Source of the DNA: Betaproteobacteria bacterium
GTDB lineage: Bacteria; Pseudomonadota; Gammaproteobacteria; Burkholderiales; Casimicrobiaceae
NCBI GenBank assembly: GCA_013298045.1
Contig: JAAFJI010000008.1
Location: 1 to 34,300, forward strand
DNA: 34,300 bases
Direction of reading: 5' to 3'
Shown in pieces: positions 16,396-23,589 of the stretch (its first letter is position 1; each line of letters begins with the position of its first letter). The position numbers were made by a program, and so were the translations under genes. The notes beneath the pieces are model-generated. The model did not search any database, was not told the origin of the DNA, and saw only the letters and a list, made by a program, of their open reading frames with translations.

Positions 16396-16782
16396 AGAGG
16401 TCGATTGTAGGTGAGTGCGCATTTCGAGCCGCTTTATCGCCGATCATGCGTCAAGCAGCATCTACTGCGTTCAGGTCGCGCTGGCAGCGCGTGCCCACCC
16501 GGTCATTTGTTTTCTAAGAATGGTCTTATAGAAAGACGTGGCTTTAGCTCAATGTCATAAAGCGCTGATTTCATTCATTTTTTTCGGCAGGTCTGGCTGG
16601 CTTTTTCCAGGTTCGAGGGTAAAATTGGCTCAGTCTTTCGGGGCACCGCATGGAGCCGGGGTCGCGCATCGAATCGCGTGACAACCCGAGCGTCCGCTTT
16701 GTTCAGTGGCGAGCTAAGCGGTGCATTGGGTCTGGCGGCTTAGTTGCGGCAGCGGCGACGAATTGGGTGGAGAGTGCATGGT
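16396..16782. promoter_or_regulatory. Divergent intergenic region between ispB and pgaA
   Basis: No gene is seen in these 387 bases. On the minus side the TACAAT box at 16404-16409 probably drives ispB. A perfect 15-base palindrome, CGCGCTGGCAGCGCG at 16477-16491, could be an operator or a short hairpin. The pga promoter must lie here, but no convincing -35/-10 pair could be picked out. Confidence 0.4.
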
Positions 16783-19308
16783 GTGGTTTTGCGTTTAGGC
16801 GGGTGTTGCGCGAAGCGGGGTCTCGTTCAGGAAAGTGCTGAGGCGTGCGCCTGCGCGATCCTGTGCGCGCTGGCAGCGCTGCCATTTTCTGCCAACGCAA
16901 TCTCGAGCGCCGAACATGATCGAATGATCGAGCGAGCGCGAAATGGCGAATCGGCCACGGTCGTTCGCGACATGCAGATTGCGCTCCTTGCGGAGCCTGC
17001 AAATACCCGCCTGCGCCGTGACGCTGTGGTCGTTGCCAACTGGGCCGAAGAACACGAAACGGCGGTGCGCGAATACGAGCGACTCGGACCGGGGCAACCG
17101 ATGTATGTGGTGTCGGTCGCGGCACTGTCGTACCGCCGACTCGAACGCTGGAAACCCGCAATCGAGGCCTATCAGCGCGTCGTGCGAGCTGAGCCTAAAA
17201 ACTACGATGCGCAGGCGGGGCTCGTTCATTCGACGATCGGCGATGGCCAACTCGACAACGCTTCGGCGCTGCTCGAAGCGTTTTTGCCGGTGTCGCTGCG
17301 TGAGCGAAAACAAAAGCAATACCTGCCGCTGATCGAGGCTCTGGCGATGCTTCGCGAGCGGCAGGAACGTTGGAGCGAGGCGCTTGCGGCGTGGCAGGAT
17401 GTGCTTGCCGTGAACCCAGAGTTTGCGGCGGCGAAGAGCGCAATCGTTTTCGTGGCGAGCCGCCTCGGAGCCGCCTCAATTGCCAACGATCGGGCGCGCT
17501 CGATTGGTCCGCCGCGCATCCAACCCGACGCACAGCTTAGGCTCGGACAAGATCGCACGGCCTTCCAGATGCGCCACGGCGATGTTCAGCTCTCGCTCGA
17601 CACCGGGCAGGCGCGCTTTGGCTGGACCGACCGCGCACTCGCCTCGAACGATGCGGATCGAAAAGCCGCACCTGAAGATAGCAGCTACGCAAACAATGCG
17701 ATGTTCGATCGCTTAATCGCGCTGCGAGATCGTGTGCGGATGGACGATGTGCTTGCGCTCTACGAAGAGATCAAGACACGCAAGTTAAAGACGCCGCCGT
17801 ACTCGCTGGCGGCAGTTGCCGACGCCTACCTCTACAACAAAAAGCCGTTCGACGCACGCGACCATTACATTCGGGCGCTGGACGCCGTTGTACAGGCGGG
17901 CGGGAAGCCGGTCGAGGAATGGCAATTCGCGCTGATCTACGCCTACCTCGAATGCGAGCAGTGGCAAGCCGCCAGCGACTTGCTGGATCAGTTGCTTGCG
18001 AAGCTCAAACCCTTTCGCTTCGAGAAGTCTCCGCTGCAACGCGACAATCCGGAGTACGCGCGGGCGCGGGTGATGCGAGCATTGCTCGATCTCTACGGCG
18101 ATCGTCTGGTGCCCTCGAAGGCGTGGCTCGATGAGTTTCTGAAACTCGCGCCGCACAATCTGTCGGCGCGCGCGGCGCTTGGCAGTTGGTACTCCGCCAA
18201 CAACATGCCCAATCATGCGAACGAAACTTTTCTGCGTATCAAGGCGGAAGACGGCGACTACTTGACGGGTCGTTTGGGTCTCGCGGAGAGCAATTTGTCA
18301 CTGTCCCGCTGGCGCGAAGCCCGCGCGGCGACACAGGCGATCGTTGCGGAGTACCCCGAAAATCGCGGCGCACAGCGACTCGACGACATTTTGCGCACCC
18401 ATGACGCACCGTCGCTTCGCATGACCACACAGATGACCTGGCCGGTCAACGACGGGCCGCGCGGCGCGCTTGCAACTCGGCCCTCGCGTGCGGATCGCGA
18501 CTGGAAAATCGATGCTTACGCCTACAGCATGCCGATTGCAGAGGACTATCGACTGTTTGCGCATGCCTTTGTGTCCGCCGCTGAGTTTCCAAACCTTCAG
18601 GGACGCCGCGAGCGCTACGGTCTCGGCGTTGAGCGTGAGGTGGAGTCGCTCGCACTCGCCGCAGAGCTACACGCAGATCGCCGACCCGGCAACACACAAG
18701 GGCTCTCGCTGTCGATGAGTTACCTGCCGAGCGACGCCTGGCGCGCGCGCATGTCGGTCGATACAAACACGACCGACATTGCTTTGCGTGCATCGCTCGC
18801 TGGCATTCGCGCACGCCAGTATTCGATCTCGGTCGATCGGCGCTACCCGTACTTCCGTAATCTGAACCTTGGACTCAACTACGCGCGCTACAGCGATGGC
18901 AACGAGCGCAGCGCGATATCAGGGACCTGGCATGAACGCTGGATTAGCCAGCCGCGACACAAACTCGACATGGATTTCTCGCTGTACGCGTCGCAAAACA
19001 CCTTGCTCGGCGTGCCGTACTTCAATCCCTCGCGCGATGCGAGCGTCGATGGAACGTTTATCGGCGAATGGTTGACCTGGCGAAACTACGAACGCAGCTT
19101 TAAGCAGCGCCTGATTGGGACTGCGGGCGCGTACTGGCAAGAGGGCTACGGCACGCTGCCGGTGCTTGCCATCAAGTACGAGCATGAATGGGAGCGTCAG
19201 CGCGAGTGGGTCATTCGCTACGGGCTGGGATGGACGCGCCGTCCGTACGATGGAGTACAGGAGCAACGCGCGCAGATCTATCTCGATCTGGACTGGAAGC
19301 TCAAGTGA
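16783..19308 (+). CDS. pgaA: PgaA outer-membrane porin for poly-beta-1,6-GlcNAc export
   Basis: About 841 residues (E. coli PgaA has 807). After a signal peptide (hydrophobic ACAILCALAALPFSANA) come periplasmic TPR-like helical repeats, for example AALSYRRLERWKPAIEAYQR, which bind PgaB and the partly deacetylated polymer. The last 300 residues alternate in a beta-strand pattern and end RPYDGVQEQRAQIYLDLDWK, a barrel that passes the chain through the outer membrane. The start is uncertain: the GTG at 16783 has GGAG ten bases upstream, while a GTG at 16774 and a TTG at 16744 are also in frame. The stop overlaps the pgaB start by one base, so the two genes are translationally coupled. Confidence 0.9.
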   Translation: MVLRLGGCCAKRGLVQESAEACACAILCALAALPFSANAISSAEHDRMIERARNGESATVVRDMQIALLAEPANTRLRRDAVVVANWAEEHETAVREYERLGPGQPMYVVSVAALSYRRLERWKPAIEAYQRVVRAEPKNYDAQAGLVHSTIGDGQLDNASALLEAFLPVSLRERKQKQYLPLIEALAMLRERQERWSEALAAWQDVLAVNPEFAAAKSAIVFVASRLGAASIANDRARSIGPPRIQPDAQLRLGQDRTAFQMRHGDVQLSLDTGQARFGWTDRALASNDADRKAAPEDSSYANNAMFDRLIALRDRVRMDDVLALYEEIKTRKLKTPPYSLAAVADAYLYNKKPFDARDHYIRALDAVVQAGGKPVEEWQFALIYAYLECEQWQAASDLLDQLLAKLKPFRFEKSPLQRDNPEYARARVMRALLDLYGDRLVPSKAWLDEFLKLAPHNLSARAALGSWYSANNMPNHANETFLRIKAEDGDYLTGRLGLAESNLSLSRWREARAATQAIVAEYPENRGAQRLDDILRTHDAPSLRMTTQMTWPVNDGPRGALATRPSRADRDWKIDAYAYSMPIAEDYRLFAHAFVSAAEFPNLQGRRERYGLGVEREVESLALAAELHADRRPGNTQGLSLSMSYLPSDAWRARMSVDTNTTDIALRASLAGIRARQYSISVDRRYPYFRNLNLGLNYARYSDGNERSAISGTWHERWISQPRHKLDMDFSLYASQNTLLGVPYFNPSRDASVDGTFIGEWLTWRNYERSFKQRLIGTAGAYWQEGYGTLPVLAIKYEHEWERQREWVIRYGLGWTRRPYDGVQEQRAQIYLDLDWKLK

Positions 19309-21290
19309 TGGGCGGCACGCTTCGTCGAGTAACGGTCGGCGCACTGCTCGCGCTGTCTGTGCTTGTCGCTACCGCTGCGCTTGGCGCCGGCGAGCAACCG
19401 CTGCTGCGCCTGGATTTGACGCTAAGTGCGAGCACTTCGCCCCCATCGCTCGCCTCTGCGGCCGTGTCGGCATCGACGATCACTACCTTGAAGGGTTCGC
19501 GCGTGACGTCCGCCGACGCCGTTCTTTCGATTGATCGCCCGCCTGTGGCGGCGTTACGTGCGAAGGCGATTGCAATCGCCCCGCCCGCGACGTCAGCGCT
19601 CGCACGACGAGAACCACTCTCGCCGAACAATGTGTTTCACGTGCTTGCGTACCACGATGTTTTCCCTTCGCTTACCTCTAAGCAAGACGTCGGCGACGCC
19701 GGCGCGATCACGGTCGATGAAATGACGCGCCACTTTTCGTGGCTGCGCGACAACGGCTATCGCGTCGTGAGTTTGCAACGCGTGTTGGATGCGCGTAGCG
19801 GAGGCGAGCCGCTGCCGGCGAAATCGGTGATGCTGAGCTTTGACGATGGGTACAAAAGTTTCCACACCCACGTGCTCCCGGTGCTCAAACTTTTCGGCTA
19901 CCCGGCCACGCTCGCAATCATTAGTCAGTGGATTGACAATCCGAGCGCCGCCACCATCGAATACGAGGCGACCCGCACCGTGGCTTCGCAGTTCATGAGC
20001 TGGGACGAGATTCGCGACTGCCTCGACTCCGGCTTAGTCGAAGTGGCCTCGCATACTCACGATTTGCATCACGGTCATCTGGGTAATCCGCAAGGCAACA
20101 AACAGCCTGCCGCGATTACGCGGCGATACGATCCGACGACCGCTAGCTACGAAAGCGAGGCGATGTACGAGGCGCGTATCCGCGCTGATCTTACGATGAA
20201 TAGCGACACGCTTGCCGCGCGTCTCGGCGTTCGACCGCGCGCCGTCGTGTGGCCCTATGGCGCCTACAACGCGCTCACCCAGCGGATCGCCGCCGAGCTT
20301 GGCATGCCCATAGGGTTGACGGTCGGCGACGGCTTGAATTCCGACGAAACCTCACTCGCAGCAATCGGTCGCGATCTGATCGATCACGATACCGACACCT
20401 ACGACATCGCTGCGAGTCTGCGCTCGCGAGATACGCGAACGCAGCGTGTAGTGACCGTCGATCTGCCAGCGGAAATGATCGGCTACAGCAATTTCGATGA
20501 AACCTCTTTGTCGTCGATGCTTGAGCGCATGCTGATACTAAAACCAAGTATCGTCATTTTGCGCGCACACGAAAAATTTTCTGCGGCAAAATCGCCAAGC
20601 GCTGTTTTTTTCTGGAACTCGGTGGTTCCGGTGCGCGCCAACCTGCTCAATCGCGTCGCCTGGCAGCTGCGCACGCGCGGTGGCGTGCGCGTGTTTGTGG
20701 AAGACCCTGCGGAATCGATGAACGCGCGCGATCGCTTGACCCTGCTCACTGAGCTTGGACGCTACAACCATTTCGCTGGTTTTGTGCGCGGCCTCGATGC
20801 GCCGAGCGCCCCGGCAACCGATCCTGGCGTTGCGGCTCTCGTGCAGAACCATCCCGCACTCGAGACCATGCAGCGGGTCGCGCTTGACGCGCGCTGCGGC
20901 GACGAATTGCCGTCGCCGAACGATGCGGCAGCTCGCACGACTCGAAACGCGAGCTACAGTCGCTGGCGCGAAGCGGCGGCGCTCAACCGGTGGGTGCTTC
21001 TTCGGGTGCGCGCGGTGCGGTCGGAAAGCTGCACTCTCAAGTGGTGGAAGTCGCTTGCGGCAATCGGTGCAACGATGCCGGATTGGCAACAGCGCACGAT
21101 CGTCGAGATCGACAACGATATCGCGCGCGATCATGGCGAGGAAAGCGTGGTCAAGCCGCTACTTAACGCGTATGCAGCTGGCTTTCGGCATCTCGGCTAC
21201 GCCCACGACGACATGCGCGCCGACCGCCCGACGGCGACGGTCGTGAAGCAAGCGATCTCGCTTGAAACCCACCCTGTCAAACAAAGGTAG
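19308..21290 (+). CDS. pgaB: PgaB poly-beta-1,6-GlcNAc N-deacetylase, atypical C-terminal domain
   Basis: A 660-residue periplasmic enzyme that removes acetyl groups from a share of the residues so the polymer can be exported. The signal peptide ends near ALGAGEQ; there is no lipobox cysteine, unlike the E. coli lipoprotein. A long Ala/Ser-rich linker leads to the NodB-type deacetylase domain (about 110-375): AYHDV with H116, LSFDDGY with D179 and D180, metal-binding SHTHDLHHG with H249 and H254, and VVWPYGAYN. The C-terminal domain (about 381-660) keeps the landmark VAWQLRTRGGV, but is shorter than in E. coli and has FVRGLDAP where that protein has FHDDA. Start and stop overlap tightly with the flanking pga genes. 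Confidence 0.92.
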   Translation: MGGTLRRVTVGALLALSVLVATAALGAGEQPLLRLDLTLSASTSPPSLASAAVSASTITTLKGSRVTSADAVLSIDRPPVAALRAKAIAIAPPATSALARREPLSPNNVFHVLAYHDVFPSLTSKQDVGDAGAITVDEMTRHFSWLRDNGYRVVSLQRVLDARSGGEPLPAKSVMLSFDDGYKSFHTHVLPVLKLFGYPATLAIISQWIDNPSAATIEYEATRTVASQFMSWDEIRDCLDSGLVEVASHTHDLHHGHLGNPQGNKQPAAITRRYDPTTASYESEAMYEARIRADLTMNSDTLAARLGVRPRAVVWPYGAYNALTQRIAAELGMPIGLTVGDGLNSDETSLAAIGRDLIDHDTDTYDIAASLRSRDTRTQRVVTVDLPAEMIGYSNFDETSLSSMLERMLILKPSIVILRAHEKFSAAKSPSAVFFWNSVVPVRANLLNRVAWQLRTRGGVRVFVEDPAESMNARDRLTLLTELGRYNHFAGFVRGLDAPSAPATDPGVAALVQNHPALETMQRVALDARCGDELPSPNDAAARTTRNASYSRWREAAALNRWVLLRVRAVRSESCTLKWWKSLAAIGATMPDWQQRTIVEIDNDIARDHGEESVVKPLLNAYAAGFRHLGYAHDDMRADRPTATVVKQAISLETHPVKQR

Positions 21291-21295
21291 CCGCG

Positions 21296-22630
21296 ATGTT
21301 TGACTGGATCCACGACTATCGACTGCTCAAACCGCTGTTCGACTTCGTCTTCTACTACCCGCTCTTCATGGCGTGGATGTGGATTATTGGCGGGCTTTGG
21401 TACTACTACCACTACGAGCGAAAAGACCTGGCCATTGAGGGCGAGCCGCCGCTCAAGTCGCACCCAAAAGTCACGGTCGTCGTGCCCTGCTACAACGAAG
21501 CCGACAATGTCGAGGAGGTGGTCGCCGCGCTCGACAAGCTGGTCTATCCGAACTTCGACATCATCTGCATCAACGACGGTAGCAAGGATAAAACCGGCGA
21601 GATTCTTGATCGCCTACTACCGTTGTTTCCGCGCCTGCGCGTTGTGCATCAGGCAAAAAACCAGGGCAAGGCGGTCGGACTCAACACCGCCGCTGCGGTC
21701 GCCGACAGCGAATATCTGCTCTGCATCGACGGCGACGCCATTCTTGATCCGCATGTGATCCCGTGGATGATCCGGCACTTCGACAGCCCGCGTGTCGGTG
21801 CCGTTACGGGCAACCCGCGGATTCGCACCCGCTCAACGCTGCTCGGCAAAGTACAGGTTGGCGAGTTCTCCTCGATCATCGGGCTCATTAAGCGCGCCCA
21901 GCGCAGCTACGGTCGTATTTTCACCGTCTCCGGTGTGGTGACGATGTTTCGTAAAACCTCGGTACACCACATTGGCTATTGGAGCCCGGAGATGCTCACC
22001 GAGGACATCGACGTGAGCTGGAAGCTGCAAACGGCGCACTGGGAGGTGCGCTACGAGCCGCGCGCGCTCTCGTGGATTCTGATGCCGGAGACGCTAAAGG
22101 GTTTGTGGAAGCAGCGGGTGCGCTGGGCGATGGGTGGCATTCAAGTCATCATGAAATACACCAAGCCGTTGTTCACCAGTTGGAAGCAACGGCGCATGTG
22201 GCCGATCTACATCGAGTATCTGACGAGCGTGGTCTGGGCCTACTGCATGGCGCTTGTTTTCGTACTCTGGATTTTGACGATGCTCTGGCCGGGTATCCCG
22301 CACGGTCTGCACGTCGGCTCGGTGTTGCCGCAGTGGCACGGGCTATTGATCGGCACGACCTGCCTTGTTCAGTTTTTCGTCTCGCTCAAAATTGACCAAC
22401 ACTACGAACCGAAGCTCACGCGCTACTTCTTCTGGATGGTCTGGTATCCGCTCGCCTACTGGATGCTCACGACGTTCTCGACCGTTGCTGCGGTGCCGAA
22501 AACGCTCACTCGCAAATCGGGCAAGCGCGCGGTGTGGGTGAGTCCTGATCGCGGGCTCCGGCAGACACCTGTCGCTGGAGGCGCGGAAAGCGTACCCGCC
22601 AATCCTGCCGCGCCCGGAGCGTCGGTGTGA
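21296..22630 (+). CDS. pgaC: PgaC poly-beta-1,6-GlcNAc synthase
   Basis: A 444-residue inner-membrane family 2 glycosyltransferase that polymerises UDP-GlcNAc (E. coli has 441). One N-terminal membrane segment (about 17-38) precedes the catalytic domain with PCYNEADN, INDGSKD, the metal-binding CIDGDAIL, the catalytic-base motif LTEDID and the processive KQRVRWAMGG. About three membrane segments follow (near 305-333, 344-364 and 378-400). An AAGG lies before the ATG. The stop overlaps the pgaD start as GTGA. It acts with PgaD, which it needs for activity and for response to cyclic di-GMP in E. coli. Confidence 0.96.
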   Translation: MFDWIHDYRLLKPLFDFVFYYPLFMAWMWIIGGLWYYYHYERKDLAIEGEPPLKSHPKVTVVVPCYNEADNVEEVVAALDKLVYPNFDIICINDGSKDKTGEILDRLLPLFPRLRVVHQAKNQGKAVGLNTAAAVADSEYLLCIDGDAILDPHVIPWMIRHFDSPRVGAVTGNPRIRTRSTLLGKVQVGEFSSIIGLIKRAQRSYGRIFTVSGVVTMFRKTSVHHIGYWSPEMLTEDIDVSWKLQTAHWEVRYEPRALSWILMPETLKGLWKQRVRWAMGGIQVIMKYTKPLFTSWKQRRMWPIYIEYLTSVVWAYCMALVFVLWILTMLWPGIPHGLHVGSVLPQWHGLLIGTTCLVQFFVSLKIDQHYEPKLTRYFFWMVWYPLAYWMLTTFSTVAAVPKTLTRKSGKRAVWVSPDRGLRQTPVAGGAESVPANPAAPGASV

Positions 22631-23589
22631 GCAAGCACAGCAAAGCGCTGATTATCGAGTCGCCCGGGCTGCAACGACCGCTGCCACGCTCCGCTTGGGC
22701 GCTCGCAACGATGCTGTTTTGGGCAGCGTGGTTTTGGCTCTGGTTGCCGCTGCTTTCAATAATCGGATGGGCGTTTGGCATATACACGGTTTTTGACCAG
22801 TTCGTCGTTCGCTGGGGATATATCGAGCTTTTGCGGCTACTGCCATACTACCTCCTCGTGATCGGCGTGAGCGGCGTTGCGCTGGTTGGATGGTCGTTGC
22901 TCCAGTACCATCGTTTTCACGGGAAGGAGCGGCGTAAGGCGTTTCCCGTCGTGTCGCGCGCCGACATTGCGAAGTCACTTGGACTGACCGAGGAGACCAC
23001 CGTCCCGTGGGCGGCAGCGCGGCGGATGGTTGCGCATCACGACGAAAACGGGCGGGTCAGTTGGGTCGAAGTCGGGGAGAACGCGGTCGCAGCCGACGAG
23101 GCAAGTCCGCTTGCGATTACCGCTGAAGCCGACGCTGCCGCGCTCACCGCAATTTTAATTGAACCGTCGCCGCTTCTCAATACCGCAGCGCTTGCGAAGG
23201 CAAGCCGGACGCGAACCCCGATTGCTCCCCTCATTGTTGAACCAATCAACGAGCAGGACCGCGAACTACTACAGGGAGATTTACGGGATCCGACGAGTTC
23301 TGACTCAGAAATCAGTCGGCTCGCGGTCGGCGACGACCAGCTTCCGATCGAATCGCTTGCTTCAGAAAACACAATTGGTCGATTCGCATTCGTTTCGAAT
23401 GCATCAGAAAACGCGTCTAAATCGAACGTGAATGAGGCAAGCGGCGATGAAGCTGTGGCTCGCACGCAGATCGAAACATCCGACGCGGCGCTCCTCAACA
23501 CACCGAATCAGAGCCTTGGCCTGCGTCCTCGGCGAAAGCGCCGTGTGGCAAGCCCCGTCGTGCGGCGAACCGGCCATTTCGCGCTATAA
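22627..23589 (+). CDS. pgaD: PgaD-like subunit with a long C-terminal extension
   Basis: A 320-residue protein starting at a GTG that overlaps the pgaC stop. The first 150 residues fit PgaD: two membrane segments (about 25-56 and 68-92) and a cytoplasmic stretch with LQYHRFHGKERR. PgaD in E. coli has only 137 residues and partners PgaC in the cyclic di-GMP-controlled synthase. The extra 170 residues are Ala/Ser/Glu-rich and probably disordered, end in the basic run RPRRKRR, and show no domain that I recognise. The TAA stop lies within the TATAAT of the next promoter. Confidence 0.78.
   Translation: MSKHSKALIIESPGLQRPLPRSAWALATMLFWAAWFWLWLPLLSIIGWAFGIYTVFDQFVVRWGYIELLRLLPYYLLVIGVSGVALVGWSLLQYHRFHGKERRKAFPVVSRADIAKSLGLTEETTVPWAAARRMVAHHDENGRVSWVEVGENAVAADEASPLAITAEADAAALTAILIEPSPLLNTAALAKASRTRTPIAPLIVEPINEQDRELLQGDLRDPTSSDSEISRLAVGDDQLPIESLASENTIGRFAFVSNASENASKSNVNEASGDEAVARTQIETSDAALLNTPNQSLGLRPRRKRRVASPVVRRTGHFAL

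Follow-up and report, generated by a model that had tools for sequence, protein, structure and literature searches.

A PgaB ortholog with an intact deacetylase site and a lost hydrolase site, shared with relatives, in a complete pgaABCD operon

PgaB of Escherichia coli (PDB 4F9D) and PgaB of Bordetella bronchiseptica (BpsB; PDB 5BU6 and 6AU1), the latter defining family GH153, join a CE4 deacetylase domain to a GH153 hydrolase domain. What a polymer-cutting enzyme contributes to biofilm-polymer operons is unsettled; the biological role of PgaB hydrolysis is called unknown in one study (PMC7112194) and left to further study in another (PMC5933820). In B. bronchiseptica the catalytic residue is D474, with D466 as its counterpart in E. 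coli and D463 in Serratia (PMC5933820, PMC13366581). BpsB is an active hydrolase in which alanine mutants of D326, D328, H473, D474 and E585 are reported to lose >90% of activity and D364A is unstable, while D474, the probable catalytic acid, is the only residue that failed both as Ala and as Asn (PMC5933820). Deacetylases without GH153 activity are found in IcaB and the icaB-like clades, which have no hydrolase domain; the Gram-negative icaB-like clades are also described as being without detectable pgaA and pgaD (PMC7112194). A functional analogue of a deacetylase/hydrolase without hydrolysis, again acting on a synthase-dependent polymer, is offered by the hydrolase-dead mutants of Pseudomonas aeruginosa PelA (PMC9894940), although these are laboratory mutants of the Pel system and are likened to the protein described here by function. 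No report of a degenerate or dead GH153 domain within a pgaABCD operon was among the literature matches listed, which is a weak negative.

We analysed a 34,300-nucleotide stretch of a betaproteobacterial genome (the window), which carries a PgaB with the same domain order as BpsB and the same operon position as E. coli PgaB. Like the IcaB-type proteins it would, judging from its sequence, deacetylate without GH153 activity, but it differs from them in having a conserved 290-residue C-terminal domain and an accompanying pgaA.

The pga operon and its deacetylase half

The genes pgaA, pgaB, pgaC and pgaD follow one another in that order on the forward strand, their ends overlapping or nearly touching (Table 1), so that pgaB has a PgaA_barrel protein upstream and a GT2 synthase and PgaD downstream. 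The position and frame given for pgaB in the original prediction were correct: its ATG at 19308 overlaps the stop codon of pgaA (TGATG) and the frame closes at 21290. The pgaA open frame begins at TTG and its real start may therefore lie further downstream. PgaC contains DGS, DGD, TED and QRVRW, which we take to be motifs of GT2 synthases. PgaD has a C-terminal extension of ~175 residues past its Pfam domain, and between the window and a second genome of the genus (G010) it is only 41% identical, compared with 75% for PgaC and 81% for PgaA. Further downstream, a ribosomal protein L21 gene (23667-24356) encodes a C-terminal helix-hairpin-helix match of 26.5 bits against a Pfam cut-off of 27.

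Table 1 Features of the pga locus in the window
Feature	Position	Strand	Remarks
pgaA, periplasmic TPR region and outer-membrane porin barrel	16744..19308	+	PF21197 PgaA_barrel, 179.2 bits, residues 574-852
pgaB	19308..21290	+	660 aa; signal peptide, variable linker, CE4 deacetylase, degenerate GH153
PgaB signal peptide			Residues 1-26; our reading of the sequence
PgaB linker, signal peptide to CE4	19386..19622	+	Residues 27-105; long, little conserved
PgaB CE4 de-N-acetylase domain	19623..20417	+	Residues 106-370
PgaB GH153 domain, degenerate and shortened	20418..21287	+	Residues 371-660
Best-kept stretch of the GH153 domain	20616..20678	+	Residues 437-457, NSVVPVRANLLNRVAWQLRTR; E. coli 372-392
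Former catalytic site FVRGLDAP	20781..20804	+	Residues 492-499; equivalent of E. coli FHDDA
Cys530	20895..20897	+	Cys in all three genus members in alignment A2 (column C158)
Cys575	21030..21032	+	Cys in all three genus members in alignment A2 (column C203)
pgaC, GT2 synthase	21296..22630	+	49% identity to E. coli PgaC over its residues 30-438
pgaD	22627..23589	+	320 aa; PF13994, 89.6 bits, residues 8-144

E. coli PgaB is lipid-anchored (PMC9384988), whereas the first 30 residues of the window PgaB hold no Cys and no lipid anchor is therefore expected. The deacetylase half, called intact on the strength of D179, D180, H249 and H254, is indeed so, and H116 is kept as well, which completes the five catalytic and metal residues (H55, D114, D115, H184 and H189 in the E. 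coli reference). This domain scores 85.2 bits against the CE4 Pfam profile (in the longer 700-aa frame), and its best solved relative by sequence is the CE4 domain of B. bronchiseptica (5BU6, E 2.1e-69). Identity to E. coli PgaB is 31.6% over E. coli residues 45-418, which cover CE4 and the beginning of the GH part; the match to 4F9D ends at window residue 478, just past the third strand.

The degenerate GH153 domain

Homology of the C-terminal domain to GH153 is seen both in Pfam and by profile comparison. The GHL13/GH153 profile PF14883 gives 46.3 bits (cut-off 27; 700-aa frame) over only profile positions 16-85 of 324. An hhalign comparison of the three genus members with 25 canonical GH153 domains extends homology across nearly the whole C-terminal half, pairing columns 3-286 with 5-366 (probability 99.5, E 3.7e-22). 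Single sequences compared in the same way gave 99.2 for the window PgaB and 100.0 for L052, a more distant PgaB described below, while L005, the PgaB of genus member G016, gave 41.5 over 120 columns only. The alignment opens a single gap of ~35 residues at the third loop, with more gaps past the motif, and we read it as retaining all eight barrel strands. AlphaFold models, run on two sequences each, were too poor for use (pLDDT 32.7 for the whole protein, 45.7 for the domain). The domain model drew seven strands near their expected places and expected strand 4 as a helix, which we do not count as evidence; a Foldseek search returned 594 matches at E <= 10, on which we base nothing, and none at E <= 0.001.

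Counted from ten alignment columns ahead of the Asp of the first strand, the GH part comes to 285 residues, compared with 361 for E. coli PgaB; the shortfall of 76 agrees with the original prediction of about 80, and about 35 of these fall in the segment that links the third strand to the former catalytic motif, where some 40 had been said to be missing. Most of the long third loop thus appears to be gone; in GH153 this is the longest loop and folds back into the pocket (PMC5933820). The claim that FVRGLDAP stands in place of FHDDA was likewise upheld: R494-G495-L496-D497 align with E. coli F464-H465-D466-D467, and the catalytic position is therefore Leu496. The second position retains Asp (D497). 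Both D466 and D467 are Asp in all 39 canonical PgaBs of our set; the closest relative, the sister protein L023, has Glu-Asn at the two positions and the next relative Leu-Glu, so that no acid is conserved at either, although the Glu at the catalytic position of L023 speaks against a dead site. The B. bronchiseptica residues D326, D328, D364, H473, D474 and E585 correspond to D385, P387, K423, G495, L496 and R571 of the window PgaB, by a mapping of Bordetella numbers to alignment columns that is our own except for D474=D466. One of these six charged residues thus survives, the D326 equivalent D385, and the acids of the groove and -3 subsite are mostly lost. Since the catalytic residue was checked for and is absent, we do not class the protein with the active GH153 enzymes.

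Conservation in the genus and recurrence of the loss

A PgaB match was found in three of 17 genomes of the genus, those of the window, G010 and G016, and these three are also the only genomes with PgaD among 64 surveyed in the family. The G010 protein has the same architecture and, over residues 10-660, an identity of 69%; READ01000041.1 (Betaproteobacteria isolate PH2015_03U_57_24) matches this stretch at 68% and likely belongs to the same genome. The G016 protein is 33% identical to that of the window and has no GHL13 match, in an operon with pgaABCD in order. Alignment of related PgaBs, proposed with the original prediction as a check, places the lost site and the architecture in the genus relatives too. 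Between the window PgaB and L023 the CE4 domain is 79% identical (dN/dS 0.07), the GH-like part 69% (about 0.10) and residues 1-105 36% (101 aligned; 0.30), ratios that are rough because they come from a single pair with a dS of about 2, near saturation. Residues 546-660, at 78% identity, are conserved like CE4.

Position 465, after the third strand, is Glu in the window and L023 and Asp in L005, against Trp in 39/39 canonical PgaBs. In alignment A2 all three genus members share W553, and Cys530 and Cys575 might form a disulfide; a larger alignment sets L005 differently at all three columns, so that its Cys and Trp residues are not aligned there. The Cys pair was rejected as proof of a disulfide: canonical L045 and L077, like L086, also carry two Cys, and canonical L037 and L079, like L052, carry one.

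Surveys with PgaA and GHL13 profiles placed the window PgaB in a wider setting. GHL13 was found in 30 of 399 genomes of the order and PgaA_barrel in 39 (E <= 0.001), 29 of them at E <= 1e-20; G016 alone among these 29 has no GHL13 match. A class sample of 369 genomes gave 20 with GHL13 and 31 with PgaA; at E <= 1e-20 PgaA remained in 19, and two of these, G749 and G794, have no GHL13 match. G749 has a degenerate PgaB, while G794, whose contig ends at pgaA, was dropped, as were L083 (G785, CE4 site absent), L085 (G627, no PgaB frame found) and L086 (a second copy in G457 with the CE4 site lost and the GH site kept). The survey covers genomes with a PgaA or GHL13 match, and PgaBs outside those would be missed. 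Fifty PgaBs with all five CE4 residues resulted, E. coli included as a yardstick; 39 have Asp at the D466 position and 11 (hereafter losers) do not. The CE4 residues are intact in 11/11 losers, which were selected on that property.

The losers comprise the three PgaBs of the window genus (window, L023, L005), L052 (G158), L049, L050 and L051 (G190, G347 and G375, with Glu, Gly and Asn at the catalytic position), L081 and L082 (G652 and G525), L084 (G759) and L127 (G749). L081 and L082, of 466 and 480 aa, stop inside the GH region, 2 bases ahead of pgaC. Losers make up 7 of the 31 PgaBs from the order and 4 of the 18 from the remainder of the class sample; as some genera are represented by several species, these counts are not independent rates. 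On a 50-row tree of CE4 domains, with the loser label set by the GH residue and not by the tree, the losers require 5 changes (bootstrap 5-6), 4 of them forced by well-supported branches, and a single clade for all 11 is rejected (p-AU 2.5e-5). A 49-row tree without L127 gave four changes for 10 losers; the first tree, of 32 rows, had been seen by the time L127 was added and counted losers only as two groups against each other. L052, L081/L082 and L049-L051 fall in starred clades alongside intact PgaBs, and loss is the best reading for them. The three rows of the window genus group with support 85/81; they and the G759/G749 pair lie on long branches close to the midpoint root, which makes it less certain where they belong and in which direction the site changed.

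The window PgaB is thus one case of a recurrent loss, not a single odd protein, and repeated natural loss with the deacetylase site kept suggests that hydrolysis is dispensable in those lineages. Intact L047 groups with L049-L051, and intact L067, L069 and L070 with L081/L082; such losers beside close intact relatives are natural matched sets for separating deacetylase and hydrolase activities. There was no sign in the window of a co-loss of the hydrolase-stimulating region of PgaA, which aligns from E. coli residue 28.

Several variants of the operon were encountered in the survey. Beside the degenerate PgaB of G759 lies a 569-aa PgaC (L092:3149-4858, minus strand) with what looks by eye like a PgaD-like tail, and beside that of G749 a 644-aa PgaC (L127:4185-6119, minus strand); these are possibly a PgaC-PgaD fusion lineage. 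The reverse case is the PgaB-like copy L086 of G457 (L095:5054-6985, plus strand), which retains the Asp pair of GH153 but not the CE4 site; the 12.5 kb surveyed around it holds no pga neighbours, and the genome has no PgaA_barrel match. Directly before a pgaC in G010 is a 126-aa frame (L056:8810-9190, minus strand) whose last ~50 residues weakly match the C-terminus of PgaB (41%, 36 bits); the full pgaAB of G010 is on another contig, perhaps reflecting a split operon with a pgaB remnant.

Readings of the degenerate domain

We consider it likely that the window PgaB is a hydrolase-dead ortholog whose trimmed barrel is kept as a partner of the deacetylase or a guide for the polymer, which is exported untrimmed. 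Because its residues are intact and the operon is complete, the CE4 domain would be expected still to remove acetyl groups from the PNAG-type polymer of PgaC/PgaD and to dock to PgaA. The C-terminal barrel would persist as a conserved domain despite having lost the catalytic Asp, most of the groove residues tested and the greater part of the third loop, presumably as a scaffold with the barrel fold. It is most likely retained because the deacetylase needs the barrel structurally and the barrel helps to pass the chain to PgaA. In E. coli the CE4 domain is inactive in isolation (PMC5933820), and PgaA binds the CE4 half, the GH half being dispensable for this binding (PMC9384988). The polymer would leave the cell deacetylated and probably not endo-cleaved; it may as a result be longer and more cell-attached. 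Hydrolase activity of PelA lowers adherent biomass and makes low-molecular-weight secreted Pel (PMC9894940); Yersinia pestis PgaB mutants at the D364 and D474 equivalents formed normal biofilm, for which gene copy number may be an explanation (PMC5933820).

The distribution of kept residues gives a hint of such a partner role. E. coli PgaB residues 367-392 are reported to be near the CE4 domain (PMC7112194), and the best-kept stretch of the window domain falls within them. The window PgaB keeps 11 of 16 conserved residues in this segment and 29 of 78 elsewhere (nominal p = 0.021, in a test of 10 losers with columns treated as independent; L127, found later, was left out). The values for L081 (2.2e-6) and L082 (5.6e-5) are low partly since the second half of their domain is absent, and that for L052 is 0.0076. 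Keeping was not significant in L023 (0.082), L049 (0.37), L050 and L051 (0.078 each) and L084 (0.14). L005 keeps 2/16 in the segment against 23/78 elsewhere, so other parts of the domain must matter too.

More tentatively, and with the balance somewhat against it, the loss could be a recurrent adaptive switch rather than decay, turning the hydrolase into a non-catalytic barrel that serves as partner and guide and, if so, moving the matrix away from released and towards retained polymer. One lineage would then keep a half-length domain instead of a minimal barrel, and the Cys pair and the acidic position after strand 3 shared in the genus would point to a newly selected role.

Two alternatives to a hydrolase-dead partner or guide would account for the lost site in other ways, and we regard both as unlikely. 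The operon may make a different or differently modified polymer, hydrolysis having been lost as the substrate changed: identity to E. coli is as low as 24% for PgaA (over E. coli residues 28-807) and 26% for PgaD over a 73-residue match, and the PgaD extension is long, but PgaC is much closer to its E. coli counterpart and has the GT2 motifs, and the CE4 site is complete. Alternatively, a separate enzyme encoded elsewhere in the genome may trim the polymer, leaving the PgaB site free to decay. Site loss is what this predicts, and other bacteria do have a separate PNAG hydrolase, the GH20 enzyme DspB (PMC5933820). The chances of such trimming in trans are lowered, to about those of a changed polymer, by a family search for GH20 that found none in the four genomes searched (G000, G010, G016 and G158) and by the window pgaB being the sole GHL13 match in G000, a genome about 90% complete.

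We think it improbable that the barrel still acts as a hydrolase through a site rebuilt from window residues E465/D466 after strand 3, D385 on strand 1, E600 on strand 7 and D634. The acid at 465 in all three genus members, at a position of canonical Trp, leaves a small opening for acids supplied from another loop, and D385 and E600 are kept in both the window and L023. W553, invariant in A2, is the equivalent of the sugar-stacking E. coli W552 (PMC9935895). L005, however, retains neither D385 nor E600, and its Trp is not at the W553 column in the larger alignment; most of the pocket-shaping third loop is gone, and the equivalents of D328, D364, H473, D474 and E585 are lost. Finally, a pseudogene, frameshift or assembly error, which a fragmented draft genome of 346 contigs might suggest, is extremely improbable and was rejected, since the same architecture recurs at 69% identity in another genome and, more diverged, in a third species, with the domain conserved where the linker is not and the open frame free of stops.
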